Source of the DNA: Zygnema cylindricum
Lineage: Eukaryota > Streptophyta > Zygnematophyceae > Zygnematales > Zygnemataceae
NCBI GenBank assembly: GCA_037447655.1
Contig: JBBHKE010000176.1
Location: forward strand, 1 to 64,000
DNA length: 64,000 nucleotides
Direction: 5' to 3'
Of the stretch, positions 2,022 through 60,097 are shown piece after piece. Both the position numbers and the translations under genes were made by a program. The first letter of the stretch is position 1; each line of letters opens with the position of its first letter. The notes beneath the pieces were generated by a model. That model was not told where the DNA came from. It saw only the letters and a program-made list of their open reading frames with translations, and did not search any database.

Positions 2022-3346
2022 AATATTCCTTTTCTCACTTATCTTTTAGAGCCCACTTTAGATTTACTTCTCCCCTTTCCTTGGAATCCGTTGAAGTCTC
2101 CCTTTCCGACCAGTTTTTTGTTTCCAAATATCAATGAAACTATCCTCAATAATTTGAACTCCCTCAAGTTTCTCCTCTCTCTTTAATTCCCTTATACCTC
2201 CAAAAGCACACTGTTGCTTTCGTGAAATTTCTGTGTGCTTTTCTTTCTTCCCCATATTAATGATGCGGAGAAAGCTCCAAAATATCTTCATCCTCGTTCT
2301 CCTCTTCCCGATGTTCCTCCTCATCAACATTCCAACTTCTAATTTCTTCAAGACAAGGACACCCCTCTATATAGTGACTGGCTCGCTACAAAAGAAGCAA
2401 ACCCCTATTTTCAAAGCTCCCATTTCTTTTCCTCTCCCTCTCTTTCCACCAAAATCCCAATGAAATTTACCTTTGTCTTTCTTCCTCTCATCACGCTTCC
2501 GCTCGTCACCGCCGTTCCTCTCATCATGCTTCTGGCACTCACCACCAGCTGTTAATGCATTCACCCTGTTACTTCCCCTACGAAACTCCAAAGTGCTTTC
2601 CCTCACAAGAATTATCCCTATGGTAATGCTCCGAGTCCATGAGGAGCTATCCATTTCCTGCATACAGTTAATGATGTTTTTGTACTCATTTGAGAGTTTC
2701 ATAATTAGTGTGTTAATCTTTCTCTCCTTAGATTCTACATATCCCGCACTAGCAAAGCTCAACATTTAACGTAGCAATATCATTGCAAAACTCGTTCATG
2801 CTACCGTCTTTATAAACATAGGCCCCTAATTCATGTTTTACTAACAGCTGCCTCTGCATAGTTTCACTCTAATAAATTTTCCTTGGTGATTCCTAGATTT
2901 TTTGAAGACTTCGTTAGATTTAAAAAAGTGATAGCTATGGACTTAGACACATTTCTAAGTACAAGATGTTTTGCTATACTATTTTTATACTCCCAAATTC
3001 TACTGTTAGTTTCTTCAATTTTAGTTATAACCCCTACAAGTGGGACCATAGCCGAGAGCCTAACTCCCCTCATCATAGGTCTTCCTTTTCCTTTCTCCCC
3101 TTTTCCCCTTTCCATAGCAATGATATTCCTATCACCTTTCGTTTTATTTGAAATCCAGTTGGTTTTTTGGGAAGCCCAAATGAATCTCCATAGTGAGCTC
3201 CACCAAAGCCCGGTCGCTGACACCTCACTTGTCCCGAAACAATTCCCAATAAGTGCTTTTTGAAAAGCAATCCTTCTATCGTAAACTCCCTATAAGTGAA
3301 GTCTTTTCCATCAAACAAACGCACCCTAGATGTTGGGCCCATAACC
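2022..3346 (-). pseudogene. Gag, array unit 2 (broken)
   Basis: The minus-strand frame begins at the primer site (3346-3332) and reads the MGP(T/P)SRVRLFDG start of Gag. Open pieces lie at 3342-3073, 3223-2864, 2765-2367 and 2351-2064. They match, in order, the N-terminus, middle, basic Arg/Lys/Asp repeat region and acidic tail of the element H Gag. The zinc knuckle keeps CFFCSEP but is disrupted after it by a frameshift near 2365. The unit is truncated at 2022 by element 1. Confidence 0.82.
3332..3346 (-). other. Half-tRNA primer-binding site
   Basis: The minus strand reads GGTTATGGGCCCAAC directly after the LTR, two bases off the standard form seen in elements G and I. It would pair with the anticodon-side half of initiator tRNA-Met. 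Confidence 0.75.
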
Positions 3347-4221
3347 TAAAACTCCGAGACCTCTATTGGTCCTCAGAGTAAGTAGCTCTCAAGAAGCTTA
3401 TCTAGTTAGTGCCGACTCCAAGTTGATATAAACCCAAATGATTGACCCCTTGACAATCAAAACCCCAGTATAACTTCACTCTTGTGAAATAAGATTTTCT
3501 GTGTGCTTAGTTCCACCACAGAATGCAAAGTTAGAATATGAGTTTTGGACACATTCACCCACTTTGACTTTCTCTTAGAAGTGAAGCTACCCTGGCAGGC
3601 AAAAACTCTTACCGACTAAACCTTTGTGTAGCCTAGACTTTCCTGAGTCTGGAGCAAAAAGAATCACTGAATTTGGTCAACCGAGTGAGTTATAATTAAA
3701 TGGCAAAGAGTGCCTATTTATACAGATGCTCTTTGGGAGAGAGGCGACTACCTACCAAAATATTCTAAGTCGTATTTCCTCTCTAAAACCCCTTCTACTA
3801 AATTACGGTCCAATCATAGGACTACACCGTACAAAAAGTACAAGTACTGGAGTACTTTATGCACGGTAACTGTACTACATGGCCAAAACAGTGACATTTG
3901 TCACATCCGAATTTGTTGTCTTGCTCTCCGAAGATACCGAAAACCCGTACGATGCTGCCACGTGTTATCCGGAGTGGCGGCTTTCGGAAAACTCCAAAAT
4001 GCCCTTTCCGCGATATCGGCTCCTAACACGGCCGTTCGATGAAGTCCGGATTGAATATTTGCCATTGAAATAAATGTTCGCAGCATTTATTTCGTGCGGT
4101 ACTATAGTACACAACTTGTTTTATGTTCTACCTTACTATTTATTAGTTAAACGAAATATCCTATTTGTAAACGTTTATATAACTATCAAACCCTATATAA
4201 TTCATCAATAGTCTAAGACTT

Positions 4222-4289
4222 AACGGACAAAGCTAACGGCTACTAGGTTTGACAACCGTAGGTACCACGATCAAGTCTTGGGTCCGTTA
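4222..4289 (+). other. tRNA-like module antisense to the LTR
   Basis: A 68-nt stretch has a perfect 7-bp acceptor-like stem (AACGGAC 4222-4228 with GTCCGTT 4282-4288) and a T-arm-like hairpin of 5+7+5 nt (4265-4281, loop ATCAAGT, one mismatch in the stem). The T-arm is followed directly by the 3' acceptor strand and an A, as in tRNA. The B-box-like core is an approximate match to GGTTCGANTCC. The D-arm is very short and the middle hairpin is not a normal anticodon arm, so this is not a functional tRNA gene. Related modules occur in all A, B and F LTRs. Confidence 0.6.
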
Positions 4290-4294
4290 GACTC

Positions 4295-4300
4295 TTTTTT
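4295..4300 (+). terminator. Possible Pol III terminator
   Basis: A run of six T lies five bases after the end of the tRNA-like module, the usual kind and distance of RNA polymerase III terminator. Equivalent T4-T6 runs follow the module in the other A, B and F LTRs. Confidence 0.45.
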
Positions 4301-4482
4301 GGTAAATCTACTAGTTTCTACCCCAGTTTCTCTAGAAGACCTACGCAGCCATGACTCTAACTCCCTATCCAAGCCTTCAGTGACTACAACAAGTGTGGGG
4401 GCTTAGAGAAGGGAGTTAGAGGCAGACTGCCTATTCCCTTTTGTATTCTTAAACAGACCCAGAAAATACACAGATGTCAACG

Positions 4483-6391
4483 CTCCCCTTTATTTTCTAG
4501 TCTTGTTTTCTTGTCAGTTAAAAAAAAAACAAAACAAAAATCCCTTTTTTTTTCTTTTTCTTAATCTTTTTCTTTTCCTCTCATAAAACTTTAAGTGAAT
4601 ACCCCGTGTTTAAAGAATTAATTTAGACTAGCCAAAACAAACCTTGCATCTTGTTTATCATTTATTTTATTTAGCATCCCATTTATCATAAATCCGAACA
4701 AAGATTTTATCCACCTCATCTCTTTTCCATCCACACAAAATCCATTTTTCTTCTTGCAATTCAAATAGCCAGCCCCATCTCCAATGTGCAACACACACGT
4801 AGATGCTAACCCTTTTACAGGTACAACTTCATAGATGGCATCACTCCCATTAGTGATGTAAAAACCATTACCCCCCAAATTTATCCTTAAATCAAGAGTC
4901 CCCACTAAGTTCCTCATAAAATCTACATCTTCCGAAACTCATATTTTTATCCATGATAATTACCCCATTTTTTGAACTTTCCTCACTCTCTCCCACATAA
5001 TTCTTTCCACTATCACTTTCTATTTTTGTTCATAAAATATATTTCTCCTCCCTTAAACATTTAATCAAATATTCCTCTTCTCCCTTTTCTTTTAAAGCCA
5101 CCTTTAGATTTACTTCTCCCCTTTCCTCAAAATCCGTTGAAGTCTCCATTTCCGACCAGTTTTTTGTTTCCAAATATCTATGAAACTATCTTCAATAATT
5201 TGAACTCCCTCAAGTTTCTCCTCTCTCTTTAATTCCCTTATACCTCCAAAAGCACACTGTTGCTTTCGTGAAATTTCTGTGTGCTTTTCTTTCTTCCCCA
5301 TATTAATGATGGGGAGAAGCTCCAAAATATCTTCATCCCTCGTTCTCCTCTTCCCCATGTTCCTCCTCATCAACATTCCAACTTCTAATTTCTTCCTGAC
5401 AAGGACACTCCCCCATATAGTGAATGGCTCCCTACAAAAGAAGCAAACCCCCATTTTCAAAGCTCCCATTTCTTTTCCTCTCCCTCTCTTTCCACCAAAA
5501 TTTCGATAAGGTTTACCTTTGTCTTTCTTCCTCTCATCACGCTTCCGCTCGTCACCGCCGTTCCTCTCATCATGCTTCTGGCACTCACCACCAGCTGTTA
5601 ATGCATTCACCCTGTTACTTCCCCTACGAAACTCCAAAGTGCTTTCCCTCACAGAATTATCCCTATGGTAATGCTCCGAGTCCATGAGGAGCTATCCATT
5701 TCCTGCATACAGTTAATGATGTTTTTGTACTCATTTGAGAGTTTCATAATTAGTGTGTTAATCTTTCTCTCCTTAGATTCTACATATCCCGCACTAGCAA
5801 AGCTCAACATTTAACGTAGCAATATCATTGCAAAACTCGTTCATGCTACCGTCTTTATAAACATAGGCCCCTAATTCATGTTTTACTAACAGCTGCCTCT
5901 GCATAGTTTCACTCTAATAAATTTTCCTTGGTGATTCCTAGATTTTTTGAAGACTTCGTTAGATTTAAAAAAGTGATAGCTATGGACTTAGACACATTTC
6001 TAAGTACAAGATGTTTTGCTATACTATTTTTATACTCCCAAATTCTACTGTTAGTTTCTTCAATTTTAGTTATAACCCCTACAAGTGGGACCATAGCCGA
6101 GAGCCTAACTCCCCTCATCATAGGTCTTCCTTTTCCTTTCTCCCCTTTTCCCCTTTCCATAGCAATGATATTCCTATCACCTTTCGTTTTATTTGAAATC
6201 CAGTTGGTTTTTTGGGAAGCCCAAATGAATCTCCATAGTGAGCTCCACCAAAGCCCGGTCGCTGACACCTCACTTGTCCCGAAACAATTCCCAATAAGTG
6301 CTTTTTGAAAAGCAATCCTTCTATCGTAAACTCCCTATAAGTGAAGTCTTTTCCATCAAACAAACGCACCCTAGATGTTGGGCCCATAACC
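4483..6391 (-). pseudogene. Gag with RNase H remnant, array unit 1 (broken)
   Basis: This is the most complete internal region of the array. The minus-strand pieces are 6387-6118 and 6268-5909 (N-terminal and middle Gag), 5685-5110 (basic region, zinc knuckle CFFCREP and acidic tail) and 4917-4618 (RNase H-like tail with MRNLVGTLDL, ITNGSDA and VLHIGDGAGYL). Frameshifts separate them. Protease, integrase and reverse transcriptase are absent, as in elements H and K. A polypurine tract (plus-strand ctcccctttatttt at 4483-4496) joins it to the shared LTR. Confidence 0.82.
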
Positions 6392-7528
6392 TAAAACTCC
6401 GAGACCTCTATTGGTCCTCAGAGTAAGTAGCTCTCAAGAAGCTTATCTAGTTAGTGCCGACTCCAAGTTGATATAAACCCAAATGATTGACCCCTTGACA
6501 ATCAAAACCCCAGTATAACTTCACTCTTGTGAAATAAGATTTTCTGTGTGCTTAGTTCCACCACAGAATGCAAAGTTAGAATATGAGTTTTGGACACATT
6601 CACCCACTTTGACTTTCTCTTAGAAGTGAAGCTACCCTGGCAGGCAAAAACTCTTACCGACTGAACCTTTGTGTAGCCTAGACTTTCCTGAGTCTGGAGC
6701 AAAAAGAATCACTGAATTTGGTCAACCGAGTGAGTTATAATTAAATGGCAAAAAGTGCCTATTTATACAGATGCTCTTTGGGAGAGAGGCGACTACCTAC
6801 CAAAATATTCTAAGTCGTATTTCCTCTCTAAAACTCCTTCTACTGAATTACGGTCCAATCATAGGATGACACCGTACAAAAAGTACAAGTACCGGAGTAC
6901 TTTATGCACGGTAACTGTACTACATGGCCAAAACAGTGACATTTGTCACATCCGAATTTGTTGTCTTGCTCTCCGAAGATACCGAAAACCCGTACGATGC
7001 TGCCACGTGTTATCCGGAGTGGCGGCTTTCGGAAAACTCCAAAATGCCCTTTCCGCGATATCGGCTCCTAACACGGCCGTTCGATGAAGTCCGGATTGAA
7101 TATTTTCCGTTGAAATAGATATTCGCATCATTTATTTCGTGCGGTACTATAGTACACAACTTTTTATATGTTCTACCGTACTATTTATTAGTTAAATGAA
7201 ATATCCTATTTGTAAAGGTTTATATAACTATTAAACCCTATATAATTCATCATTAGTCTAAGACTTAACGGACAAAGCTAACGGCTACTAGGTTTGACAA
7301 ACCGTAGGTACCAGGATCAAGTCTTGGGTCCATTAGACTCTTTTTTGGTAAATCTACTAGTTTCTACCCCAGTTTCTCTAGAAGACCTACGCAGCCATGA
7401 CTCTAACTCCCTATCCAAGCCTTCAGTGACTACAACAAGTGTGGGGGCTTAGAGAAGGGAGTTAGATGCAGACAGCCTATTCCTTTTTCTATTCTAAAAC
7501 AGACCTAGAAAATACACAGATATCAACA
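6392..7528 (-). repeat. LTR, family A (5' LTR of the array)
   Basis: It is a near copy of 3347-4482 shifted by 3045 bp. The TG end reads correctly here (TGTTGATATC on the minus strand at 7528). Block X follows immediately at 7529. A tRNA-like module sits at 7267-7335 on the plus strand with T6 at 7341-7346. Confidence 0.88.
7267..7335 (+). other. tRNA-like module antisense to the LTR
   Basis: This is the copy of 4222-4289. The T-arm-like stem here pairs over all five positions (CCAGG with CTTGG, one G-U), with loop ATCAAGT. The acceptor-like stem has one mismatch (AACGGAC with GTCCATT). The middle hairpin GGTTTGACAAACC is a perfect inverted repeat. Six T follow at 7341-7346. Confidence 0.55.
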
Positions 7529-8801
7529 TAGATTTAGCTTGAGGGGAGGAGTAAAGGGTAATTTAGAGTTATTCCCTCGTTTGGTTATGTTTTTATGCAT
7601 TCGGTTTCTTTAAATTTAAATATGACAAAGTGTTCACTCACAATGATTCTAGCTGTGTGAGGTTGCCAATCTTTGGTGCAATGGATCCCCCCAGTCCTCT
7701 CGAGCCTAGCCCCTTGCACTTCCTTCTTATTGGTCGTTAAAATACTCTCCCTCACATTGGTCATTAAAAGAACTCTCCCTCCCATTTGTCGTTAAAAGTC
7801 ACTCCTCATTGGTTATTAAAGAAATCTCCCACCCATTGGTCGTTTAAAAACTCTCACTCCTATTGGTCATTAAAGAATTCTCCCTCCCATCGATCGTTAA
7901 AATAACTCTCCCTCCCATTAGTTTTTGAATGAGTTCCTTCAAACTCCTCCACCCCTCTCATAGATAAACGAAGAACTATCTCCACCCTTATTGAGCAAGT
8001 CCCCCCATTATTTTTCCCCATACACCTATTTTTCCTTTATGCACAAAGAGGTATCCTCACTCCCTTGGGTTTGTTGTCTTAGATTCATTTTATCACTCTC
8101 CCCCCTCCATGACCCTTCCTTGTGTCCCCCCCCAATCGCCCCTTTAACCCTTCAACGCCCAAGCATTAGCCTATAAGCGCATCACAACAAAGGGTACATG
8201 CAACATATGATCACAATTTAGTGCGAAATTTAGTGCGATTCATGACAGTAAAGAGTGCGCGCAACAATAGTTACTCACGCATAAGTCACGCGATGGGTAC
8301 CATCGCAAAAAAAAATTCTTCATCACATCGAATTGTGGGAAATTTCTTATTGTTTATGATGGCCGCTTTCACCGCCTTAAGTGTTGACTCAACGTCAACA
8401 GTAACGACAATCGAAATCAAGTTCACCCATAAAAATTAGTTTGGTAGGAAACGTAAAGGTCAACCACATAACCGCAATCTAGATCCATAACCATTACCCA
8501 TATTACAAGAATCTCTTAGGTGTTCCATGAACAGGACCAATAAAGAATATAAAACAGCACAAGGTCATGTATCGACGTAACAAAATCTTGAAAAATGGAT
8601 GTCTTTTACAAGATTGTAAATCTGGTCATGCCCTTATCTAGGAATATATATTTACTAATGGCTTTGATTTTCCACTGTTGTAAGGGATATATCACATACT
8701 ACAAAATGGTTGTTGTTAAGCAATGACTCTTGTAATGTTTTTTTTTAATCCTCCTTCCAACAAAGTTGCAATTCTATAAGAAAATAATCTCTTCTCAATG
8801 C
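7529..8801. repeat. Block X, copy 1
   Basis: This 1.27 kb block recurs at 12013-13285, offset 4484, almost base for base; I saw only a few differences near its right end (around 8751 and 8775). Both copies lie directly right of the TG end of a minus-strand family A LTR. It contains a roughly 30-bp tandem repeat, a C-rich pyrimidine stretch near 8095-8160 and short ORFs without recognisable products. What X is remains unknown: captured host DNA or part of an unrecognised element. Confidence 0.85.
7722..7930. repeat. ~30-bp minisatellite with ATTGG core
   Basis: About seven degenerate units of roughly 28-32 bp, each with a version of ATTGGTCGTTAAA followed by ACTCTCCCTCCC. Each unit carries a CCAAT-type core in reverse (ATTGG or a one-base variant). 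The same array occurs in copy 2 at about 12206-12414. Confidence 0.8.
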
Positions 8802-9848
8802 TGTAGAAATTAATCGTTTTAAGTATTTTCTAGGTCTGAATAGAAAGAAAGAAGCCGAGGCAGTCTACCTCTAACTTCTCTCTCCAACTCTCAAACTTGT
8901 CGCAGTCACTGAGAAATTGGAGAGGGAGCTAGAGCCATGGCTACCTAGGCTATCCAGAGGTTTACGGGAAATATATATTAGTTAGGGGTTTATTTACTAA
9001 AAGGTATGTGCCGGTCACAGGATTTGATCCTGGTACCTACCGGCCGGCAGACAGCCGGTAGACGGTAGCCTTAGCCGTTAACTCTAGAACTAGTGTTACG
9101 TACTATGAAGTTTGATATTTACTTAAACATTATCAGGTAGGATAATTCATTTAACTGTATCTGTTTACGGGATACATAGATCCAGTAATGTAAAAGTACG
9201 GATTACTGTACGGATAAGAAACTAATACCGCGCATTTATTTCCTTAATGAAACGAATATCGTGCATGTATTTATTACAGCTACGATTAAATGTGAATTTA
9301 ATCGGACGGCCGGAATTAACGTCGATATCGCGGAAGAGGATTTCGGCGGTTTGTGGTCATCGCCACATCGGATGACATGTGGCGGAATGACATTGGATCG
9401 CGGCATCTCCGAGGATTAAGGTAGCGAATCCGGACGTACCACGTGTCGACATTTAGGCCATGTCGTACGGTGTCCGTACAGAAAGTACACCGGCAACTGT
9501 ACTTTTGAGTATGGAACTGTAATCTGATTGGTTCCGTACATCAGTAGATAGATTCTGTGAGAGAGATAGGACTTAGAAGAATTAGGAGATAGGACACTCT
9601 CTCCCACAGAGCTTCGGAACAAAAAGTCAACTTTGACCCTCCATAACTTCTTGCTCAGGGGAGCAAATTCAGAGAATCTTTTTGCTATCGACTTAGGGGA
9701 GTCTTGCCTTCACAAGGGTGAAGTTGGTCAAAGATATTGTTTTCCAGGGTGGCAGTTATTTTTGCTGAAACACAAAGGGGTTAGGGTTATGTTAGAGGCT
9801 TCTTGGAAGCTGTCCACTCTGAGGAATTATGGAGGTCTCAGAGTTTCA
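8802..9848 (+). repeat. LTR, family B (no internal region attached)
   Basis: It starts TGTAGAAATTAATCG and ends GAGTTTCA (1047 bp), matching the 5' LTR of element I (54735-55791). It has the foldback (about 8870-8945), the antisense tRNA-like module (about 9005-9085) and ACGT boxes. No primer site or gag follows; a C-rich sequence begins at 9849. The left flank (aatgc) does not match the right flank (ccgcc), so it is not a simple solo LTR. Confidence 0.85.
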
Positions 9849-10877
9849 CCGCCCCCACCGCCCGCTTTCTTCGCGCGACCGTATGTTTAAGGTTTTTTAT
9901 TTGTTTTTGTTTTTTCATAATAAATAAAAAAATTGACCCTAAACATCTAAACCCTTTTTTAGATACCTGATTACACATTTTGTTTAGTAGTGCAGGACGG
10001 GTCCCGCAAGGTGCTGAAGGTCCCGCAAATGTATGGTGGCTTGCTCGATACCCATACTGTACGTCGCACGAAACTTGTAACGAACCTAGTCTGTACCGGA
10101 GTTATCCCCGCCCAAATCTTGGCGCGTCGATGGCGTTTATGTTTGGCGAAGTAGGTGTGGTCCGACGTGTCACGAGAAAATTTGTCAAATTATAAATCAA
10201 TGCCCGCATGGACCGTGTCCTATTTTATCATGCCCATTTTTCATGCCCGTTTATCATGCCCGTTTTTCATGCACGTTTATCATGCCTGTTTATCATGCCT
10301 GTTTATCATGCCCGTTTTTCATGCCTGTTTATCCTACCCGTTTTTCATAGGCGTTTATCATGCCCGTTTTTTATGCCCGTGTTTCATGCCCGTTACACGC
10401 ATAAGGTAATTATAAAATCACACCCTAAAAAATCAATGTAGTTACACGGGCATAATCTGTCTTCTATTTCCTAAAACCCGCATTTCAAACTTTGCGCCAC
10501 ATTTTACGAACCACACGTGCTTTTAAAGTTACTGATCAGTGCGGTTTTGTAACTATATTGTCAGTGCATGTAAACGCCGAGTTTTTTGTAACATTGTAAA
10601 TGTATAGGGTTTTGTGACATTGCAAAGTCATGCTACCTTGTGACGTCATTAGTATGTAAAATCTTCTTTTCCACATGTTGCTGTATCATTATTTTTTATG
10701 GTTTCTATTTTTATTCGTGTGACGAAATATCGTGGCCAAAAATAGTGTGGCGAAAGAGCGGTGCTAGAAAAAACTTGATGATACAGCGTTATGAGATTAC
10801 TTTTACATTTTCGGTTGTATTCAAAAGTCTTTATTGGAAAAATTGCGATGGCAAAACCATCTGTGTACAAAAGGGGT
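9849..10877. other. Unassigned spacer between LTRs
   Basis: About 1 kb with no recognisable coding region. It holds a C-rich start, a T-rich stretch near 9891-9960 and the 12-bp minisatellite listed separately. Short ORFs through the minisatellite are by-products of the repeat. Confidence 0.6.
10226..10395. repeat. 12-bp minisatellite
   Basis: Imperfect tandem units of about 12 bp alternate between forms close to CATGCCCGTTTA and CATGCCCGTTTTT (about 14 units). In one frame it reads a repetitive peptide with FHARLSC-like units, but the lack of context and the variation between units argue against a gene. Confidence 0.8.
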
Positions 10878-12012
10878 ATAAACTCTGAGACCTCCATTGG
10901 TCCTCATAGTAGGCAGCTCTCAAGAAGCTTATCTAGTTAGTGCCGACTCCAAGTTGATACAAACCCAAATGATTGACCCTTTGACAATCAGAACCCCAAT
11001 ACAACTTCACCCCTGTGAAATATGACTTTCTGTGTGCTAAGTTCCACCACAGAATGCAAAGTTAGAATATGAGTTTAGGACATATTCATCCACTTTGAAT
11101 TTCCCTTAGAAATGCAGTCACCTTGGCAGGCAAAAACTCTAACCGAATACACCCCTGTGTAGCGTGGACTCCTCGAGTCCGCAGCAAAAAGAATCACTGA
11201 ATTTGGTCAACCGAGTGATTTTGAATTAAATGGCAAAGTTTGCCTATTTATACAGATGCTCTCTGGGAGAGAGGCGACTACCTACCAACAAATTCTAAGT
11301 CCTATTTCCTCTCTAAAACCCCTTCTACTAAATTACGGTCCAATCATGGCACTGTACCGTACAAGAAGTACAAGTACCGGAGTACTATATGTACGGTAAA
11401 TATACCACATGGCCAAAACAGTAACATTTGTCACATCCAGATTTGTTGTCTTGCTCTCCGAAGATTCCGAAAACCCGTACAATGCTGCCACGTGTTATCC
11501 GGAGTGGCGACTTCCGGAAAACGCAAAAATGTCCTTTCTGCGATATCGGCTCTTATCACGACCGTTCGATGAAGTCCGGATTGAATATTTGCCGTTGAAA
11601 TACATGTTCGCAGCATTTATTTCATGCGGTACTATAGTACACAACTTGTTCTATGTTCTACCGTACTATTTATTAGTTAAACGAAATATCCTATTTGTAA
11701 ACGTTTATATAACTATTAAACCCTATATAATTCATCAATAGTCTAAGACTTAACGGACAAAGCTAACGGCTACTAGGTTTGACAAACCGTAGGTACGAGG
11801 ATCAAGTCTTAGGTCCATTAGACTCTTTTTTGGTAAATCTACTAGTTTATACCCCTGTTTCTCTAGAAGATCTACGCAGCCATGACTTCAACTCCCTATC
11901 CAAGCCTTTAGTGACTACAACAAGTGTGGGGGCTTGGAGAAGGGAGTTAGATATAGACCGCCTATTCCTTTTTCTATTCTAAACAGACCTAGAAAATACA
12001 CAGATATCAACA
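10878..12012 (-). repeat. LTR, family A (second X-linked copy)
   Basis: On the minus strand it runs from TGTTGATATC at 12012 to a decayed end near 10878. It matches 6392-7528 but with clearly more differences than the adjacent X block shows against its own copy. There is no gag to the left; unassigned spacer abuts. The tRNA-like module lies at about 11751-11820 on the plus strand with a T6 run about five bases after it. Confidence 0.85.
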
Positions 12013-24699: not shown

Positions 24700-25488
24700 T
24701 GAAATTCTGAGACCTCCATAGGTCCTCAAAATGGGCAGCTCACATGAAACCCCTAGGATAACCCTGACCCCTTTGTGTTTGGACAAGAATAACTTCCACC
24801 TTGACAGAAAAAAACACTGACCAACTTCACCCTAGTGAAGAGAAGACTCTTTTGAGTAGATAGCAAATAGAATCTCGGCATTTTCTCCCCTAAGCAATAA
24901 GTTATGAAGGGTCAAAGTTGACTTTTTATAGAGAAGCACTCTGGGAGAGAGGCGCTTACCTACAAAATTTTCTAAGTCCTATATCCCTCTCTAAACCATC
25001 TACTACTAGAGTACGGCACCAATCAAAAGAATGTGTCGTATTGAGTAATTTCTGTAGGGCGATCGTACAGAATTGTTGAAATGTAAACGCTTGCCATATC
25101 CGGATTTGTTCCCAAATTCTCCGGAGATGCCGCAAGCCAATGATGTCTTGCCACGTGGTGCTGGACATGGCGGTGAGAGAAAACTGGCAAAATGCCTACT
25201 CCGCTATCTTGGCACCTATCGTGGTCATTTGATCAAAACCGGCTTTTGATTCTAGCCGTCGAAAATCAATGCGCGTTATTTGTAACGTCGTCAAAACAAA
25301 TGCGCGATATTCGTTTCGTGAAGTACCGTAAGCCGTAGGTATAATCTAACTATGTCTATGTTACAGGTTTATTGGCGTGGTTAAAGGAATTTATGTATAC
25401 GTCATCTTTAAATACTTTTCAATCCCTATATAACTCATCACTGATCCTACACTATAGGATAAAGCTAATAGCTACTGCTGATATGACA
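24700..25488 (-). repeat. LTR, family B-like (truncated)
   Basis: It begins on the plus strand with tgaaattctgagacctcc, the reversed LTR 3' end, and runs through the U5, TATA and ACGT parts to the tRNA-like module near 25440-25488. There it is cut off; the U3 start with its foldback is missing. Confidence 0.75.
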
Positions 25489-25489
25489 G

Positions 25490-26637
25490 ACGAAGTTGTA
25501 AATTGAAATCTTTATTTCTGTAGATAGGTTGTAAAAGGGGACTAACGATTAGAATATTTTCTAAGTAGTTTTGTTGTAATACGTACCTTTATAAGTGTTA
25601 CAATAGGAGAAATACAATAGAGTGTATTGAACTTCTACAAGGACGGGCGTCGCCAAAAGAAGCCTATGCATGCTTTACACATAAGCGCCGACAACCAGTT
25701 ACACACATCACGCATTAGACAAGCGGATTTGCCAGATCAGACGAACATAATTTTAACGGATATTTCAGAAATGAATGGTACGGTACTGTACTTCTGTAGG
25801 GACACGTGTCAACAATTAAATATGATCCAAATATTCCGGAGTGACGACCGACACCCACATACACGTGTCACAAATCATACAGGCATATCATCGAATCGGA
25901 CGGACGAAGACTAATCCAAACATCTGGGATATAATTGTGAGAGATCAAAAGCAGGTCATCGATACAAACCAATTCGACGGACACAATTAAACTGGGGACC
26001 ATAATGACTGAGTGCGCCGAACGCACTCAAGATATTGGTACCACGAGATCAACATTTATGTGGACTTTTTGATTAAAGCTGACTAATCAATCAACAACAT
26101 TAAGTGTACAAAAGATATTTGTAAATATTTGGAAAATAAATGGTTGGCATTTAGTGTATTAGAATTTAGTGTTACAGTGTTCATTTAGCGACAAGTTGTA
26201 ATTAGGGTTTCAGAACTACTTACGCTACAATGATGTACAGGTAGGACACTTTGTCGTAAGTCAAGATAGTATTGTAGTACGGTCACCCGAATTAGTGTGA
26301 CAAATCGATACTCATTGTGAGTATATAATTTAAGACTTAGCCAATTTTGATTCATCCAGTTTTGGGATTAGGATAATTTAAGGGCAGTTTTTCGGAAACC
26401 TTTAGACTTCCTATCTTTTGGTTTACTAGATCATTTGGGCTGCAATTTTAGGAATTGCCAGTTTATTGTGATTTGTATCAATGTTGGAAGTTTGAGTCAT
26501 ATTGGCCTTTTGAGTCATATTTTGTGTTAGTTGAAAGTTGGCTTTTGAGTAGGTGCTTGATAGTTTTTGTTGTTTTTCATGTCTACTTCCACTACTAATG
26601 CCGGTTCTCCTCCTGCAACGGTGGTTGTGGAACAACA
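25490..26637 (+). repeat. LTR, family J (5' end slightly truncated)
   Basis: It matches the solo J LTR at 29862-30796, ending GGTTGTGGAACAACA, but is about 200 bp longer. The first few bases of the LTR are missing at the junction with the B-like LTR. A gag fragment follows. Confidence 0.75.
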
Positions 26638-27091
26638 ACTTATGGGCCTTTCGTAAAGAATTCCTATATTCAATGGCCAAAAGTATGCGTACTAGGCGGC
26701 GATGGTTGAATCTTCAATTGAATTTGTTTACTTATTGGGGGTCTTTGATGGCTCCCTTCATGAAACAGATCCGAGTTGGGCGAAAAAGAATTTAATGACA
26801 AGGAACAATCTTAATCTTCGTATTTCAAATAATCTAATCATGTCTCGACAGAAAATGAAGAAGGCGATGGAGATTTGGACATCACTGAAATCTGCTTTTG
26901 AGAAAGCGAATGTCAAAGAGGAGCTCTTGGTGGCTAGAAAAACTTGGGGATACAAATACTTGGGGGGAACCATGGTCGAGTATTGTGACAATTTTCGTGC
27001 ACTTATTGATGCACACTCCTTTGCTGAGGGTCATTTCTTGAGTTATAGAATTTGGACAGGAGAAAAACTTGATGTTCTGACTCATTTCTGA
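26638..27091 (+). pseudogene. Family J Gag fragment joined to integrase scrap
   Basis: The primer site region is degenerate (cttatgggcc) and early stops follow. The open part from 26702 reads UBN2-type Gag (MVESSIEFVYLLGVFDG, then YKYLGGTMVEYCDNFRALID). About residue 112 the homology shifts to a copia integrase C-terminal motif (YRIWTGEKLDVLTHF, compare YEIWKGRKPDVSHF in element L). Gag and Pol pieces have thus been joined by a deletion. Confidence 0.65.
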
Positions 27092-28271: not shown

Positions 28272-29228
28272 TGTATAAACTAAAGGTTTTATTTATTTTT
28301 CCTAGGTTTAAAACATCTAAAGATAAAGAGCAGAAAAGAAGCAGAGGCAGTGTGCCTCTAATTCCTCTCTCCAACTCCCACACTTGTCGCAATCACTAAA
28401 GTTTGGAGAGGAAGCTAGAGCCATGGCTACCCATGCTATACAAAAATAGATAAGTAGTAGTTTGGTAGGTTTACCAAAAGAAACTTCACGAACCCAGGAT
28501 TTGATCCAGGTACCTACTGTGCGTCAAGTCAACCAGTAGCCGATAGCTTTATCATATTAGTCTAGGATCTGTGTTAAGATATATAGGGTCTCATAAATAT
28601 TTATAGACGTATACATAAACGATTTCATTTAGCAGCGCGAACAGTTTTTAGACATAGATAGAGTTTTTGTAAACATACGGTGTACGATACTAATGCTAGT
28701 ACTCCACGAAACTAATACGGCACATTTGTTTTGAGGGCGAAACAAATACCACGCATCTATTTTCAACGGCTAAAATTAAATGCCAATCTAGATTGAATGG
28801 TCGGGGTAGATGGCGAGATCACCAAATAGGCACTTTGGCAATTTTCGGTCATCGCCACGTCAATTGACACGTGGCAGCATCACATTGGCTTGCCGCATCT
28901 CCGGAAAATACGGGAGCGAATCTGGATATGGCATGCGTCAACATTTTGGCAATGTCGTACGATGGTTGTACAATAAGTACTTCGCCACTCTTATTTTTCT
29001 GTACGACAGAATAATCTGATTGGTGTCGTACTCTAGTAGTATATGGTTTAGAGAGGGATTTAGGACTTTGAAAATTTGGTAGGTAGACCCCTCTCTCTCA
29101 AAGAGCACTTGTACAAAAGGTCATTTTTGACCATCTATAACTTACAGCTCAAGGGAGAAAATTCAAAGATTCTTTTTGATATCGACTCAAGGGAGTCTTG
29201 TCTTCACAAGGGTGAAGTTGGTCAGGTT
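28272..29228 (+). repeat. LTR, family B-like (3' end missing)
   Basis: It begins near TGTATAAACTAAAGG and carries the foldback (about 28365-28425), the antisense tRNA-like module (about 28485-28560) and ACGT boxes near 28865. It stops at gttggtcagg, about 130 bp short of the LTR end, where the L LTR begins. L therefore inserted here or a deletion joined the two. Confidence 0.75.
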
Positions 29229-29233
29229 TTTAT

Positions 29234-30988
29234 TGTTGTTCTACAACCACCGGTGCAGGTGGAGGAGCAAGAGTAGTTGTAGAAGTAGACATGATACACT
29301 CTCGGAAGCTATCAAGAATCCTTCCAAACAATTTTTTTAAGTAGTCACCAAATCTTATACAAGCAACCAAACTTCACAATGCTTTATCAAATTATAAAAC
29401 AGCAAAAACACTAACAACTCCCAAATTCTTAGCACAATTGACCCGACAACACTCAAGATATAACACTCAGAAGTTTCTGAAAAACTGTTTGCAGTTTTAC
29501 TACTTAGAAGTTTGGATACATGATGTGTTTCTAAGTCCTAAGTCTTATACTTCTGTTGTAGCGGCGATACCACTAAACCTAGGAGGTACGTCAAACCACC
29601 AAGCTAACACTAATTTGTCAAGCTACCACTAAGCTACCACTAAGCTATCAGTGAGCTACCCACTGAGTTGACTAGAATTATATCTATCACCCACTGAGTT
29701 TACTAGAATCGTATCTATCGCAGTTGCTCTGTACAGTACAGAATCACATTAAAAATATCGAACGATGCATTGTCCGTACAGACCATATCAAACGTAATCG
29801 CACTTGCGTTGTCTTAACTTAGTCGCTGCTGGTTTGTTCTGACTACGACGCAGCTGCGTTGTGGTGTAATTTATAAATCTTTATTTCAGTAAATAGGGGT
29901 AAAAATAACTTAGGACATTTTCCTAGTAGTCTACTGCAATACTTACCTTTATTAGCGTTGCAGTAGCAAATAGTACAGTAGAGTGTATCGTACCTTTGCA
30001 GGGACACGCGTCGGTGAAAGAACGTATGCAGGTTTTTCGGAGTGGCGCGGACAGTCAGCCATACGTGTCAAACTGTTGACGATTCGATTCACATGATCGG
30101 ACGAACGCGATCTGACCCGGGTATTCCAGAAACATATGGTACAGTTCGACGGTACCATCGTCGATTGAATTTGATCCAACGGACGCGATTCACCCAAGAC
30201 CACAAGCGTGATTCACAAGGGACCATAAGCGTGATTGGAACGTTTTGTGTACTGTTAGAACGTTTTGTGTAAGGTTGAATATCTGTAAATATCAGAATAA
30301 CATTGGTTTGTAGTTTAGCGTAATAAAAAATAGTGTTCCATTAATCAGGTTTTTAGAAAATAATAATCAGGGTTTTTAAGGTAAAGTGACGTACAGGCAG
30401 GATGCTTTGTCGTTAGTCAAGATAATAATTTTAGTAACGGCTACCCAAATTAGTGTAGATCAGTAGATACACATTGTGAGTATATAACTTAGGACTTAGC
30501 CAATTTTGTAGTATCCAATTTTGGGAATATGATTTTATGAGGGCAATATTTGGGAAACTTCCAAATATCATATCTTATCGTTTACTAAGTCATTTGGGCT
30601 GCAATATTGGGAATTGTCATTTTACTTTACTTTGTGATACTGTGGGAAATTTGAGCCATATTGGCTTTTTGAGTCATATTTTGTGTCAGTTCAAAGTTGG
30701 CTGTTGATTAGGTACTTTGATAGTTCTGTTGGTGTTCATGTCTACTTCCACTGCTACTGTTGGTTCTCCTCCCGCAACAATGGTTGTAGAACAACACGTT
30801 GCTACATCGCAGTTGCGTTGCTGCTTCAGAGCTGCGTTGTCTCCCCTCAATGTGTGACATGTATATGTGGATGTAAGTGCCAATCCAAGATACCAGTAAT
30901 GTGTTTTAAATGACAACGCGTGTTTCGTAGATTTGTCTTCTTGTCATCACACTAATTAACTTAGACTTAAAGTTTGCCAAAATCAACA
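29234..30988 (-). repeat. LTR of element L with nested solo LTR
   Basis: The plus-strand start TGTTGTTCTACAACC is the reverse of an LTR end of J type. The other end reads TGTTGATTTTGG on the minus strand at 30988. Excluding the nested LTR it is about 820 bp. It is rich in GCTGCGTTG-like motifs. Confidence 0.68.
29862..30796 (+). repeat. Solo LTR, family J
   Basis: The 935-bp LTR starts TGGTGTAATTTATAAATC and ends GTAGAACAACA. It is flanked by cgttg at 29857-29861 and 30797-30801, a perfect 5-bp target duplication. No internal region remains, so it arose by recombination between the two LTRs of an inserted element. Confidence 0.82.
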
Positions 30989-34855: not shown

Positions 34856-36028
34856 TATTGAAATTTAAGTATTTTATAGGTCTAGGGATTGCAAAATAAA
34901 AGCTAAAACAATGACAGCTTGCCTTTAACTCTTCACTCAAGTCCCCACACTTGTCGCAGTCACTGAAGACTTGAAGAGGAGTTAGATCCATGGCTGCCTA
35001 TGCTGTCCAAAGAGGACACGAAGGCAAATCTTGATAGAGTTACCTAAAATATTTGACGGACCCGGGATTTTATCCGGGTACCAGCCGTTTGTCAAATTAG
35101 CAGGTAGCCTTAACCTACAAGTCTAAGAATAATGATAGGATATATGAGGTTTGATAAATATTTATTATGTTACACGTAGACTATTTCATTTAACAGGATA
35201 TAGATACGTAATGCATAGATACAGTTTTTTTACGATTTTAATGTACTATAAAAACGGAAACCTCGCATTTGTTTCGAACACAAAATAAATACCGCGCACG
35301 TATTTATAACGGCTACGATCGAAACCTGATTTCAATCGGACAGCCGGAAAGGATGGCGAGATCCCGGAAGAAGATTTCGGTGGTTTGCGTTCATCGCCAT
35401 ATAGGATGACACGTGGCAAAATGACATTGGATCGCGACATCTCCGGGGATTACATGAACGAATTTGGAGATGACATATGTCGACATTTTGGCCATGTCGT
35501 ACAATGGCCGTACAAAAAGTACAACGACACCTGTACTTTTCTATACCACACAGTAATTTGATTGGTGCCGTACGTTAGTAGATAGAGTTTTAGAGAGAGA
35601 TAGGATTTAGAAAAATTTAGTAGGTAGCAGCCTCTCTCCGAGAGAGCTCTTATACAAAAGGGTCATTTTTGACCATTTATATCTATCAATTTACTTAACC
35701 ATTTTAAGTGATTCTTTTTGCTGCAGACTCCGGGTAGTCCACGCTACACAAGAGTGTAGTGAGTCAAAGTTTTTGCCAGCCAGGGTGGCTGCATTTCTAA
35801 GGGAAAGTCAAAATGGGTGAATGTGTCCAAAACTCATATTCTAACTTTGCATTCTGTGGTGGAACTGAGCACACAGATAGTCTTATTTCACAAGGGTGAA
35901 GCTATAATGGGTTTGTTATTTTCAAGGGGTCAGTCAATTGGGTTTATATCAACTTGGAGTCGGCACTTTCTAGAGAAGCTTCTTTTGGATCTGCGATTTT
36001 CGTGGGTAATAGAGCACACAGAGTTTCA
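34856..36028 (+). repeat. LTR, family A (5' LTR of K)
   Basis: It starts TATTGAAATTTAAG (TG mutated to TA) and ends GAGTTTCA, 1173 bp. The foldback is clear at about 34925-34990 (ctaactcttcactcaagtc against gacttgaagaggagttag). The antisense tRNA-like module lies at about 35055-35130. Confidence 0.87.
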
Positions 36029-38806: not shown

Positions 38807-39176
38807 TGTTGAAATTTAAGTATTTTCTAGGTTTAGAGATTGTAAAATAAAAGACAAAAATGAGACATGGACAACTTGCCTCTAACTCTTCACTCAAGTC
38901 CCCACACTTGTCGCTGTCACTAAAGACTTGAGGAGGAGTTAGATCCATAGCTGCCTAGGCTGTCCAAAGAGGATAGGAAGGCAAATCTTGATAGAGTTAC
39001 CTAAAAGGTTTGACGGACCCAAGATTTGATATGGGTACCTGTCGTCCGTCAAATTACATGTTAGCTTTAACCTATAAGTATAGGATTAGTGGTAGGATAT
39101 AATAGGTTGACAAATATTTAATTTGTCACACGTAGACTAGTTCATTTAACGGGAAATAGATACGAAATGCATAGAT
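38807..39176 (+). repeat. LTR, family A (3' LTR of K, truncated)
   Basis: It begins TGTTGAAATTTAAG and includes the foldback and the antisense tRNA-like module (about 39010-39085). It breaks off after atgcatagat, where the 5' LTR continues with acagttt. A minus-strand B LTR follows with no spacer. Confidence 0.82.
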
Positions 39177-40119
39177 TTTGACCACCTTCACCCCTTTGAA
39201 GGGAAGACTCCCTTGTGTCGATAGCAAAAATTATCTCTAAATTTGCTCCCATGAGAAGTCAGTTATGAAGGGTCAAAGTTGACCTTTTGTACAAAGCACT
39301 CTAGGAGATAGGCGCATAGCTACCAGATTTTCTATGTTCTAAATCCCTCTTTTAACCCTCTACTCGTAGATTACGACACCAATCATAATATCGTGTCGTA
39401 CAGAAATCTACAGGTGCCAAAGTAATTTCTGTACGACCATCGTACGGCATAGCCAAAATATCGACGTCTGCCATATCCGGATTCGTTCCCATATTCTGCG
39501 GAGATGTCGCAAGCAAATGAGGTTGTGCCACGTGTCACTTAACTTGGCGGTGACCAAAAACCGCCAAAATGTATTCCGCGATCTCGGCATCTATCGTGGC
39601 CGTTCAATCAAAACCGGCTTTCAACTCTAGCCGTCGAAAATAAATGTGCGGTATTTGTTTCGCCGTCGAAACAAATGCGCGGTATTTGTTTTGCGAAGTA
39701 ACGTAATCCGTTTTTATACTCTAATTGTGTTTTTGTGCCACAAGTTTATTCGCGCCGTTAAATGAATTTATCTATGTATACATTTTAAAATATTTAACGA
39801 ATATTATATACCTCAACACTGGTCCTAGACTATAGGACAAAGCTAACGACTACTGTTGACTTTGACGGATGGTGGGTACTAAGATCAAATCGCGGGTCTG
39901 TCACGTAACTTTTGGTAAATCTACCAAAAACTACTACCTGTCTCTCTTTGTGGACAACATAGGCAGCTATGGCTCAAGCTCCCTCTCTAACGTTCAGTGA
40001 CTGCGACAAGTGTGGGAGTTGAATAGAGGAGTTAGAGGCAAACTGCCTCTATTTCTTTTGTGCATTTTATTTTACATGTCCAGACCTAGAAAATACTAAA
40101 AGAACCATTAATTTCTACA
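39177..40119 (-). repeat. LTR, family B (3' LTR of E, truncated)
   Basis: On the minus strand it starts TGTAGAAATTAATGG at 40119, next to a polypurine tract (plus strand ctccctttatttt at 40120). About 130 bp of the LTR end are missing at the junction with K. It carries the foldback (about 39965-40045) and a tRNA-like module (about 39825-39905, plus strand) with TTTT at about 39911. Confidence 0.82.
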
Positions 40120-42800: not shown

Positions 42801-43719
42801 TGTTGTTTTTGAAATGTTAGTTTCGTACTTACGCCACATTTTGTGCGCACGCGACGGTTCGTGCGTAGATTATTACCAGAAATATTGTGGTGGTACAAAT
42901 GGAGGTTCGAATGGATTTGTGGATTGGGGGAGTAATTGTACAATTGAAGTTAAAGGATTGTATTTTGATAATGTGGTATCAAGTGGACCGTACGTATGTG
43001 ATGTCGGTTCATGACGTGGTTTCATCCTCAAGTGACTAATCAAGTTGATACTCATTACGCGAATTTTACGGAAGCGTCGATGTAAATATTTGGTTGAACA
43101 TTGATGTGTCTTTTTGTGAATTAATTATTAGTGTAGATTTACTCACTTTGACATACCTTGAAGTATTCATGTATACCGACATTAATAGAGGTAGCTGGTA
43201 GATAGCGTACCGCTGATATGCCTCCGTACATTCAGCAGTAAGCTCTTGTATATATTTGTAGGACTTCGTCATTTTAGGACATAGGAACTTTTTGGACCAA
43301 AAACTGTTTATGGTTATTTTTGGTAATTTTATCTGAGGATTACTCTCAGATCTGATAGCGGAACTATCTGAAATTCTGCATGTTTGTTCCTATTTATATT
43401 TTTAATATTGTCACAGATTTTCAGGTCTATGGTGTGCCTGGTCTGTGTTTTACTTCATTGTGAAGTTAGCCTGTCTGATCAAAGTTCTGGCAGACTGTTT
43501 TTCTGCAACTTTGACTAGATGATGTGATCAATCTGTTTATTATTTTTGTCTGAAACTTTGTGAGGTCATTTTATATCCTAGATAATATCTGTAAATGTAG
43601 TTTCAGCTTGTTTTGTTAATTCTGTTGAATTCTGTGTGTATCCAAAGTACGCTGTTTTTTAGGGTAGTCTGTGGTGCTTCCTAGGGTGAATCCATGGCTA
43701 GAAATGGCTATGGACAACA
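42801..43719 (+). repeat. LTR, family D (5' LTR)
   Basis: Starts TGTTGTTTTTGAAATG, ends TATGGACAACA. Unlike A, B and F LTRs I see no tRNA-like module or foldback in it. The gag start codon lies inside its last 26 bp. Confidence 0.92.
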
Positions 43720-44971
43720 GGTTATGGGCCCACGCCCATGGCTACCCATATTGGATGAATCGTACTTACCCATATTTGATGGAACTGAATATTATTGTTG
43801 GAGGAGTATTATGAAGAGCTACTTCAAGTTGAGGGAGCTTATGGATGTGGTGGATGGGATATGTGTCGAAACATCGGCTGAATGGGAGGAGAAAAACCTG
43901 GAGTGCTTGAGGATTATCAAGCTATCTATGACTAAGGAATTTGTAATGATGTACCTTGATGTGAAGAGTGCAGCTGAATTGTGGAAGTGTTTAGAATGCA
44001 CTTACCAAAAGACTTCTGTGTATCATTGGATGATTAGTGCTACAAAAATATTTGAATATAAATATGCTGGAGGTAGCATGTTGAAATATTGCCTTAGTTT
44101 GCAAAGATTGTTTGCAGAAAATGATATTGCAGGAGGAAACTTTACAAATGTTCAAAAGGTTCTCTTGTTAATGAAAGGATTACCTAAAGAATATAGGTGT
44201 GCTTTAGATAGATTAAAACAAGTTGATAAAAAGGATTGGAGCTTACCTTTAGCAATCAGATTTGTTTTAGATGAAGAAGATGATAAAGAGGCTTTAAAGA
44301 ATAGGGGGAATTTTCAGGGTGTGAGATCACAATTTCAGAAAAATAGGAAAAATGGTAAATCAGAAAATTGTTTTTATTGTAATGATTTAGGACATACTTT
44401 TAGAGTATGTCCACTTTATAAAAGTGCATGTGTCACAGGAAATTTTCGAAATGGATGGGATGACTATCGGGTTCTACCCCCTAGACGAAAGGCTACACTT
44501 CACGTTGATGAATTTGTATACTTGCCGACTGTTATTTTTCTAAATATGGAAAATGAGGAAGGAAGGGAAACATGTGCTGTCACCGAAAATGGAGTGGAGA
44601 ATGAGGTGACAGAAAAGGATTTGGTTTTTGTCAATTTTTCCGATGACAGATTGGTGAGTGATAAAGATTTACAGGAGGAAGAGGTTAATGTAGTGAGGAT
44701 AGCTGGAGAGAGTGAAGGTCAATTAGAAATGGAAACTGAAAATAATTTGCATGAAGAGATTACTGTACTTAAAGAGGGAAAGAGAAAAAGTGTTCAAAAA
44801 ATTGAAGTAGGAGAGGAAGTTTATATTATTGGAAAAGAAAACAAAAGTTCAAAAATTGAGAAAATACCAAAATTTATTAAGAAAACAAAGAAAATAGGTA
44901 GAAGTAAAAAGATAATCCGTAGAAGAAAACATGTTCAGAAAATGGTCAAAAGAAAGCATCGTGGAAAATAA
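43694..44971 (+). CDS. Gag of element D
   Basis: This 425-residue intact ORF starts in the LTR (MARNGYGQQ) and runs through the primer site, which encodes VMGPRPW. The UBN2-type Gag core spans about residues 30-200 (YYCWRSIMKSYFKLRELMDVVDG, AGGSMLKYCLSLQRLFAEND; each is a short excerpt). The zinc knuckle CFYCNDLGHTFRVC (about residues 225-238) fits C-X2-C-X4-H-X4-C. The C-terminal half is acidic and ends in a strongly basic tail (KRKSVQKIE, RSKKIIRRRKHVQK). It would form particles and bind RNA. The intact frame in a non-autonomous element suggests either recent insertion or selection to supply Gag. Confidence 0.85.
   Translation: MARNGYGQQVMGPRPWLPILDESYLPIFDGTEYYCWRSIMKSYFKLRELMDVVDGICVETSAEWEEKNLECLRIIKLSMTKEFVMMYLDVKSAAELWKCLECTYQKTSVYHWMISATKIFEYKYAGGSMLKYCLSLQRLFAENDIAGGNFTNVQKVLLLMKGLPKEYRCALDRLKQVDKKDWSLPLAIRFVLDEEDDKEALKNRGNFQGVRSQFQKNRKNGKSENCFYCNDLGHTFRVCPLYKSACVTGNFRNGWDDYRVLPPRRKATLHVDEFVYLPTVIFLNMENEEGRETCAVTENGVENEVTEKDLVFVNFSDDRLVSDKDLQEEEVNVVRIAGESEGQLEMETENNLHEEITVLKEGKRKSVQKIEVGEEVYIIGKENKSSKIEKIPKFIKKTKKIGRSKKIIRRRKHVQKMVKRKHRGK
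43720..43734 (+). other. Half-tRNA primer-binding site
   Basis: GGTTATGGGCCCACG follows the LTR directly; 14 of 15 positions match the form in G and I. Although the D LTR is otherwise unlike A and B, the primer site is the same. Confidence 0.8.
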
Positions 44972-45283
44972 TTTTAGGGAAAGTAATTATCTTTTACATT
45001 TAATAATTTTTTGACGAATTTCTGATTTAAAACTTTGAATTTTGAAATTGTGTGAGAAGGAAAATTTTTACTTTGAAGACCTAGAAAGAGGTAGTGGAAG
45101 CAATGGTGTGTTTAGGAAGGAAGGATTTTGGAAGACATGGCAGCAGGCAGTTGGAGCAGTGGCGACGTCGGAAGCAGTGGTGATGTCAGCGGAAGCAGTG
45201 GTGATATTTGAACGAAAGGTACAGTTTCATTTGACACGCGGCATACTTTATTATGGGTGCACGAAACTAAAATTTCGGGGGAG
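44972..45283 (+). other. 3' untranslated part of element D
   Basis: It contains a short degenerate repeat (ggaagcagtggtgat units near 45165-45212) and ends in the polypurine tract before the 3' LTR. A short ORF runs from here into the LTR and is not considered coding. Confidence 0.6.
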
Positions 45284-46202
45284 TGTTGTTTTTGAAATGT
45301 TAGTTTCGTACTTACGCCACATTTTGTGCGCACGCGACGGTTCGTGCGTAGATTATTACCAGAAATATTGTGGTGGTACAAATGGAGGTTCGAATGGATT
45401 TGTGGATTGGGGGAGTAATTGTACAATTGAAGTTAAAGGATTGTATTTTGATAATGTGGTATCAAGTGGACCGTACGTATGTGATGTCGGTTCATGACGT
45501 GGTTTCATCCTCAAGTGACTAATCAAGTTGATACTCATTACGCGAATTTTACGGAAGCGTCGATGTAAATATTTGGTTGAACATTGATGTGTCTTTTTGT
45601 GAATTAATTATTAGTGTAGATTTACTCACTTTGACATACCTTGAAGTATTCATGTATACCGACATTAATAGAGGTAGCTGGTAGATAGCGTACCGCTGAT
45701 ATGCCTCCGTACATTCAGCAGTAAGCTCTTGTATATATTTGTAGGACTTCGTCATTTTAGGACATAGGAACTTTTTGGACCAAAAACTGTTTATGGTTAT
45801 TTTTGGTAATTTTATCTGAGGATTACTCTCAGATCTGATAGCGGAACTATCTGAAATTCTGCATGTTTGTTCCTATTTATATTTTTAATATTGTCACAGA
45901 TTTTCAGGTCTATGGTGTGCCTGGTCTGTGTTTTACTTCATTGTGAAGTTAGCCTGTCTGATCAAAGTTCTGGCAGACTGTTTTTCTGCAACTTTGACTA
46001 GATGATGTGATCAATCTGTTTATTATTTTTGTCTGAAACTTTGTGAGGTCATTTTATATCCTAGATAATATCTGTAAATGTAGTTTCAGCTTGTTTTGTT
46101 AATTCTGTTGAATTCTGTGTGTATCCAAAGTACGCTGTTTTTTAGGGTAGTCTGTGGTGCTTCCTAGGGTGAATCCATGGCTAGAAATGGCTATGGACAA
46201 CA
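45284..46202 (+). repeat. LTR, family D (3' LTR)
   Basis: Copy of 42801-43719 at offset 2483, the same length and apparently without differences. Confidence 0.92.
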
Positions 46203-55791: not shown

Positions 55792-55806
55792 GGTTATGGG
55801 CCCACC
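55792..55806 (+). other. Half-tRNA primer-binding site
   Basis: GGTTATGGGCCCACC directly after the LTR; all 15 positions fit the predicted complement of plant initiator tRNA-Met nt 25-39. Confidence 0.82.
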
Positions 55807-60093: not shown

Positions 60094-60097
60094 ACTA

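Follow-up and report, generated by a model that had tools for sequence, protein, structure and literature searches.

The window, by which is meant the whole 64-kb stretch of DNA analysed, is a nest of copia-type LTR elements, and Pfam domains (copia gag, zinc knuckle, Pol_BBD, gag_pre-integrase and SH3_retrovirus) were found in five of its seven ORFs. The unit considered here lies antisense within one of these LTRs (LTR A1), and a related unit is carried by element B.

3343–4490 (ends approximate), − strand: LTR A1, element sense −, holding the studied unit
3334, − strand: primer-binding site (PBS) GTTATGGGCCCA of the LTR A1 element
56938–61305, + strand: element B, 4.37 kb, with LTRs at 56938–58131 and about 60112–61305 and the target-site duplication CAGGT
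58112–59893, + strand: gag ORF of element B
58133–58144, + strand: PBS GTTATGGGCCCA of element B, complementary to the anticodon arm of iMet, the host's initiator tRNA

The LTRs of element B (1.19 kb) are 99.5% alike, and because they are near-identical and the target duplications match, the element must have moved recently, probably with a borrowed pol; we take it to be TR-GAG-like. Its gag is the sole ORF of at least 200 aa. A homologue search with gag gave no match, and a search with pol gave 17, of which the best (61%) is unnamed and the named ones all belong to one flowering plant (27–32%). An origin in a rust fungus, an idea taken from work on the TRIM family Helenus, was rejected, since the host's Lys, Gln and Arg tRNAs and a mitochondrial-type tRNA-Phe are of plant-like appearance. 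The E element (42801–46202), whose 919-bp LTRs are 100% identical, likewise has the iMet anticodon-arm primer site; its LTR shows no similarity to other LTRs in a self-comparison of the window. Across 3349–12012, A-family LTRs (3349–4481, 6394–7527 and 10880–12012) alternate with internal parts, and the long near-identical stretches that they share suggest recombination or a tandem element structure.

The studied unit is made up as follows, and its position, near the LTR start and with a TATA-like stretch downstream, leads us to infer that it lies in U3.

4221–4300, + strand: studied unit, antisense within LTR A1 (stem, T-arm-like hairpin and T6)
4221–4228 and 4282–4289: 8-bp stem, TAACGGAC with GTCCGTTA, perfectly paired
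4265–4281: T-arm-like hairpin CCACG-ATCAAGT-CTTGG, the 3' stem strand GTCCGTTA following directly
4295–4300: T6, beginning 5 nt past the stem

A sequence-only reading of this DNA had described a perfect 7-bp acceptor-like stem, a T-arm-like 5+7+5 hairpin followed at once by the 3' strand of that stem, and a T6 five bases on. The last two relations were seen as described at 4265–4300, and the perfect pairing is present as well, over 8 bp instead of 7; the hairpin has its ATCAAGT loop and four of the five stem pairs, the fifth being a mismatch (4268 C / 4278 T). The 69-nt fold of this copy beats its shuffles only modestly, with z −1.65 antisense and −2.11 sense. The stem common to many families pairs TTTGACGGAC with GTCCGTCAAA and is damaged in this copy (TTTGACAACC), whose perfect 4221–4228/4282–4289 stem takes a different, upstream 5' strand; near relatives, read off the alignment, pair at most 7 of 8 positions there. 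The exact fold noted at 4221–4300 is special to that copy and modest.

Searching the window for the core with up to four mismatches gave 22 matches, 14 of which are LTR units; apart from the copy described above, these and a homologous unit from another LTR family are listed below.

1033–1080, − strand: covarying stem copy TTGACGGAC/GTCCGTCAA, core 1047–1064, z −4.32
7307–7324, + strand: core in LTR A2 (fuzzy match, alignment)
9020–9037, − strand: core of a unit, 0 mismatches
11792–11809, + strand: core in LTR A3 (fuzzy match)
28497–28514, − strand: core of a unit, 0 mismatches
35065–35082, − strand: core of a unit (fuzzy match)
39022–39039, − strand: core of a unit (fuzzy match)
39875–39892, + strand: core of a unit (fuzzy match)
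48020–48120, + strand: homologous unit of another LTR family, B box GGTTCGAGTCC at 48090–48100, relatives L129–L134
Within 48020–48120, + strand: possible hairpin GTTCGAGTCC-TGCC-GGACTCAAC, one base before TTTT
50108–50125, + strand: diverged core of a unit (fuzzy match)
51282–51329, − strand: minihelix with a T-stem G-C replacing A-T, core 51296–51313, z −2.52
54949–54996, − strand: stem TGCCGGCC/GGCCGGCA, core 54963–54980, z −3.26
57143–57190, − strand: unit in LTR B1, core 57157–57174, z −1.86, outer pairs in another register
60331–60348, − strand: core in LTR B2 (fuzzy match)

That such units always lie antisense to their element holds for all 14 LTR units; since the LTRs are homologous, this constancy is no independent evidence. 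In the LTR at 24700–25490 the unit's core is broken by another repeat (25491–26638, related to 29233–30796); the idea that the unit is an insertion hot spot was dropped, as one case proves nothing.

The module is real: it is conserved in LTRs throughout the genome. The exact core GGTACCNGGATCAAATCC occurs 2,511 times (1258 + 1253) in the 353-Mb genome, against 4 times (2 + 2) for the reversed pattern. LTR-like sequence flanks 65 of the 70 sampled core loci on both sides and four (L030, L069, L077 and L081) on the downstream side only, L034 likewise with N upstream; 14 flank queries of this comparison also matched in the opposite orientation, and no stand-alone, SINE-like copy of the unit was seen among the 70. 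Removal of ten loci with N or near-duplicates left 60 copies, in which conservation extends from about −50 to +39 and drops just past the T run. A T4 run lies at +30 to +39 from the core in 51 of the 60, and the stretch from +70 to +149 is also nearly without T4 runs (2 of 60 copies), so that a T4-poor stretch is nothing special. In 37 copies not picked by the core (12 from the window and 25 of the A family, hence leaning to one family), T stands at +36 to +39 in 35–37, and AGGTAC, GATCAA, TC and TTTT are nearly invariant (33–37 of 37); in tRNA numbering, G53-A54-T55-C56-A57-A58, T60 and C61 are kept in 33–37 of these copies, and the T-stem positions 50–52/62–64 are variable. The unit was also considered as an island of conservation and rejected as such: the LTR is conserved throughout, and the core, one of about ten conserved LTR blocks, ranks 80 of 1040 windows. 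Several blocks exceed the unit in a comparison of ten in-window LTRs, for example TGACTGCGACAAGTTTGA, about +131 from the core in the 54735–55792 LTR.

The stem was assessed in an alignment of 97 rows and 96 distinct units (alignment A1), in which L001 and L002 are window copies and L007 was placed by hand at 2353–2460; it excludes L011 (unit deleted past the core, no T run), the copies at 48090 and 24700–25490, and the window copies A3 (present as L003) and B2. For the structure named beforehand, 81.0% of cells are paired vs 76.0% in shuffles, 77 cells are doubly changed vs 42.0, and covariation amounts to 0.198 vs 0.137 in shuffles and 0.046–0.069 in six slides, with 0 of 500 shuffles reaching any of the three values; on two weaker measures, pairs with a double change (12 vs 9.6) and pair types (32 vs 28.8), 11 and 45 of 500 shuffles reach the observed value. 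Three of the five measures, then, lie above all 500 shuffles and the six slides. Because this structure had been chosen by hand, every 8-bp stem in the 328 columns around the unit was scanned as well (16,830 stems). By covariation, a score that does not remove relatedness, the unit's register takes ranks 1, 2, 3, 4, 6, 7, 9, 13 and 15; by pairing alone it takes ranks 3, 6, 7, 8 and 10, with little-varying stems first. As the register ranks first to third of 16,830 by covariation, the claim that the enclosing stem changes yet stays paired holds, and it can be read directly from TTGACGGAC/GTCCGTCAA in 1033–1080 and TGCCGGCC/GGCCGGCA in 54949–54996.

Read antisense, the structure opens with an outer stem of at most 12 bp, followed by a one-sided bulge of 8 nt (GGYAGGTA) and a 7-bp inner stem capped by a CAA loop; counted in the manner of a tRNA, the inner hairpin is 5+7+5 with a loop like that of the initiator tRNA, and the conserved T4 run follows. 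The order of hairpin and then T run exists on the antisense strand only. RNAalifold found 0 consensus pairs on the 97-row alignment, and on the 60 copies essentially the inner hairpin, at −6.28 sense vs −3.81 antisense. Five antisense minihelices gave z of −4.32, −3.26, −4.12, −1.86 and −2.52, the inner hairpin being present in the best fold of three (L065, 51282–51329 and 57143–57190) and absent from that of 1033–1080 and 54949–54996; the two folded on both strands are about equal (−3.26/−2.86 and −4.12/−4.18). On a tree, double changes in the enclosing stem are 5.6 kept vs 3.0 broken on internal branches and 4.0 vs 7.5 on terminal ones, a small contrast, of the sign expected if active lineages are under selection. 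A first, shorter tree gave 8.6 kept vs 3.4 broken for this stem, and 0–4.8 kept vs 1.4–6.0 broken for slides. In the inner stem, double changes are mostly broken (1.0 kept vs 5.0 broken), and compensation in this T-arm-like stem is thus not borne out on the tree. Counts of G-U vs A-C are 78 vs 85 in the enclosing and 23 vs 23 in the inner stem, 52 vs 57 and 51 vs 54 in the 37 copies not picked by the core, and, on the tree, 20.3 vs 15.1 (internal) and 30.0 vs 31.0 (terminal) for the enclosing and 3.0 vs 5.3 (internal) and 6.0 vs 13.0 (terminal) for the inner stem; as G-U about equals A-C, wobble favours neither strand. In sum, a stem that is conserved and covaries encloses a T-arm-like core in the LTRs of these half-tRNA-primed copia-type elements.

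The unit itself is no tRNA. Searches of 15 loci and two window stretches with the Rfam tRNA model found nothing at E values of 10 or below, nor did the model match at gathering score within the 64-kb window, where ARAGORN found 0 tRNAs; a real tRNA gene was rejected on these grounds. The D-stem is 54.7% paired and loses to a slide by one column (+1, 67.6%), and a cloverleaf with a D-arm was rejected accordingly. The upstream part scores 9.60 vs 8.40 in shuffles against host tRNA D-arms, and since only 15% of copies exceed the shuffled 95th percentile, this likeness was dropped as evidence. A tRNA-like cloverleaf is therefore not supported; the B-box- or T-arm-like core of the sequence-only reading, with a conserved T run on the antisense strand, stands, as does its covarying stem. 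What is present of a tRNA gene is a T-arm with conserved loop and stem, followed directly by the stem strand, with A54 as in the host iMet. Of Pol III traits, a terminator-like run of at least four T at a fixed place is present (51 of 60 copies, as given above); given that 19 of the 39 listed ARAGORN tRNA hits of the host, repeats included, have no T4 within 40 nt, T4 is no strong mark in this host. The A box is weak, barely above shuffles (6.37 vs 6.03, of 8; 8.3% vs 1.0% perfect), with its best places at −50 to −48 in 34 of 60 copies. The B box of the main families reads GGATC instead of GGTTC, a departure from the consensus at a single near-invariant site (T54 to A). Antisense Pol III transcription of the unit is plausible.

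The tRNA most resembled is also the primer. The segment AGGTACCAGGATCAAATCCTGG matches AGGTCCCAGGATCGAAACCTGG of the host iMet at 19 of 22 nt, keeping A54, and one further position could pair G-U. In 59 of 60 copies, which had been chosen by the core, iMet is the best of eight host tRNA sequences; in whole-LTR scans the iMet match of the unit never scored above 16, and LTRs shuffled and scanned on one strand average 12.3–12.9 and reach 15–20, so that iMet likeness alone is not decisive. The PBS complements, without a mismatch, a part of the iMet anticodon arm of the host; an anticodon-arm pattern retrieved 20 stretches, five of which (L136, L140, L141, L142 and L145) are iMet genes with one T-arm, and the others include primer-site regions. 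In the unit at 48020–48120 the B box, at the homologous place and on the same strand, fits the consensus exactly, and three of six fetched relatives keep it; TTTT is present in all six, as is a D-arm-like TGGTTAGAGC, for which the window copy has TGGTTAGACC. This family diverges from the iMet T-arm, and its stretches presumably resemble elongator tRNAs, tRNA-Asn among them. Four fetched relatives still have the iMet PBS, three exactly and one with one change, and the unit thus does not follow the primer tRNA.

The leading reading, held tentatively and at less than even chances, is that of a degenerate, SINE-type Pol III unit on the antisense strand; it leads because it alone explains the T run after the hairpin together with the exact B box of the sister family. 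Ranking close behind, and itself a serious possibility short of even, is a hairpin with a role in the sense transcript (in the 3' untranslated part of the genomic RNA: packaging, dimerisation or stability) or as a DNA palindrome (GGTACC plus inverted TGACG half-sites) bound by host factors, the tRNA and B-box likeness being partly fortuitous. The stem pairs equally well on either strand, the two minihelices folded both ways and the more stable sense fold of the alignment agree with this, the core is just one among the conserved LTR blocks, and similar-scoring tRNA matches arise by chance in the whole-LTR scan; such a hairpin, however, leaves unexplained the conserved one-strand T4 run directly after it and the exact B box at 48090, and the palindrome has the further difficulty that GCCGGC families, as read off the alignment, have lost the inverted TGACG sites yet remain paired. 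That the unit has no function of its own, being what is left of an ancient tRNA-derived insertion, its palindrome preserved through conservation of the LTR as a whole, would suit the general conservation of the LTR and the degenerate A box and D-arm; covariation focused in one register and a T run in 35–37 of 37 copies are not expected of a relic, which we consider the least probable of the explanations.

A second primer-docking site is only slightly less improbable: the sense U3 RNA would complement the T-arm and variable loop of iMet, as in Ty3, in an element with an anticodon-arm site of the Ty5/copia type. The 19 matches of 22, the PBS complementary to the anticodon arm of the same tRNA, and a place and strand like those of the Ty3 3' PBS segment as described in PMC5371799 all speak for such docking. 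Selected complementarity to the primer tRNA was nevertheless not found: core positions that do not complement iMet are no less conserved than the others (A at +3 in 37 of 37 copies, T at +15 in 33 of 37), the 48090 family has diverged from the iMet arm though its relatives carry the iMet PBS, and the E element shares the PBS with an LTR in which no unit was found at up to five substitutions. Under the favoured Pol III reading, the B-box/T-arm would recruit TFIIIC, the weak A-box-like stretch lies about 50 nt upstream of the core, and the hairpin with its T run would form the RNA 3' end; the product might be an antisense RNA directed against U3, short at about 100 nt, or the unit might be merely a TFIIIC-bound boundary, and either could damp or insulate the element's Pol II promoter. 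The fullest version of this proposal we regard as doubtful, namely that thousands of copia-type LTR copies bear an antisense Pol III small-RNA unit, composed of an iMet T-arm minihelix and a hairpin-plus-T-run 3' end, as a self-encoded regulator opposing U3, in elements for which the same tRNA serves as primer.

LTRs with tRNA-like sequences are of a known kind. Cassandra shares a Pol III-type sequence in its LTR, which in Cassandra is 5S-derived; no Rfam match to a Cassandra-type 5S rRNA was found at gathering score in the 64-kb window. The Pol III microRNAs of foamy-virus LTRs are read in the sense direction. Foamy viruses, likened here by description, are animal retroviruses, unlike the present copia-type elements, and their small RNAs are described as LTR-encoded or Pol III-made (PMC7104284; PMC7693620). 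Yeast Ty3 carries the 3' segment of its PBS within U3, where it base-pairs to the TPsiC arm of the same tRNA (PMC5371799), and what it has in common with the present unit is a complement of the initiator tRNA T-arm in U3; Ty3 primes from the tRNA 3' end, whereas the PBS here is of the anticodon arm and the conserved mismatches oppose docking. Half-tRNA-Met sites are reported for the copia lineages Osser, Bryco and part of Gymco-II (Neumann, 2019; PMC6317226), which share with the present elements a half-tRNA-Met PBS and the copia type, in agreement with a plant-like host; the passages of that paper considered here mention no tRNA-like U3 unit. Among the full-text literature matches listed, a set with most subscription journals outside it, none describes a gag-coding copia element whose LTR bears a tRNA-like unit in antisense.

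The nearest relative in kind is Helenus/TRIMp3, non-coding TRIMs of 311–1263 bp with tRNA-like LTR sequence containing boxes A and B and presumed to be a Pol III promoter; its fungal families have a PBS for the iMet anticodon loop and 5-bp target-site duplications (Kojima, 2024; PMC10886601). The elements here likewise combine a tRNA-like LTR sequence with the iMet anticodon PBS GTTATGGGCCCA and a 5-bp duplication, CAGGT. Unlike the short non-coding Helenus elements, element B measures 4.37 kb, has LTRs of 1.19 kb and codes for gag, and the unit lies antisense in the about 1.2-kb LTRs of a gag-coding copia-type element; Helenus has TRGCY..YGG and GGTTC as its boxes, and here box A is weak and box B reads GGATC in the main families and GGTTC at 48090. 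The same paper considers it unlikely that autonomous partners, which in its view rely on Pol II promoters, have long LTR stretches in common with TRIMs of this sort, and in its main text the word "antisense" occurs 0 times and orientation once, in a figure legend on PBS drawings (PMC10886601). Should the primer dock at the unit instead, a half-tRNA-primed copia element would have a Ty3-like bipartite site. If, on the other hand, transcription of the unit does take place, an antisense Pol III RNA would be encoded by a long gag-coding LTR family itself, which could account for self-limitation or for Pol II/Pol III interference at LTRs, and tRNA-like LTR sequence would here be used otherwise than in the TRIM promoters described by Kojima (2024; PMC10886601).
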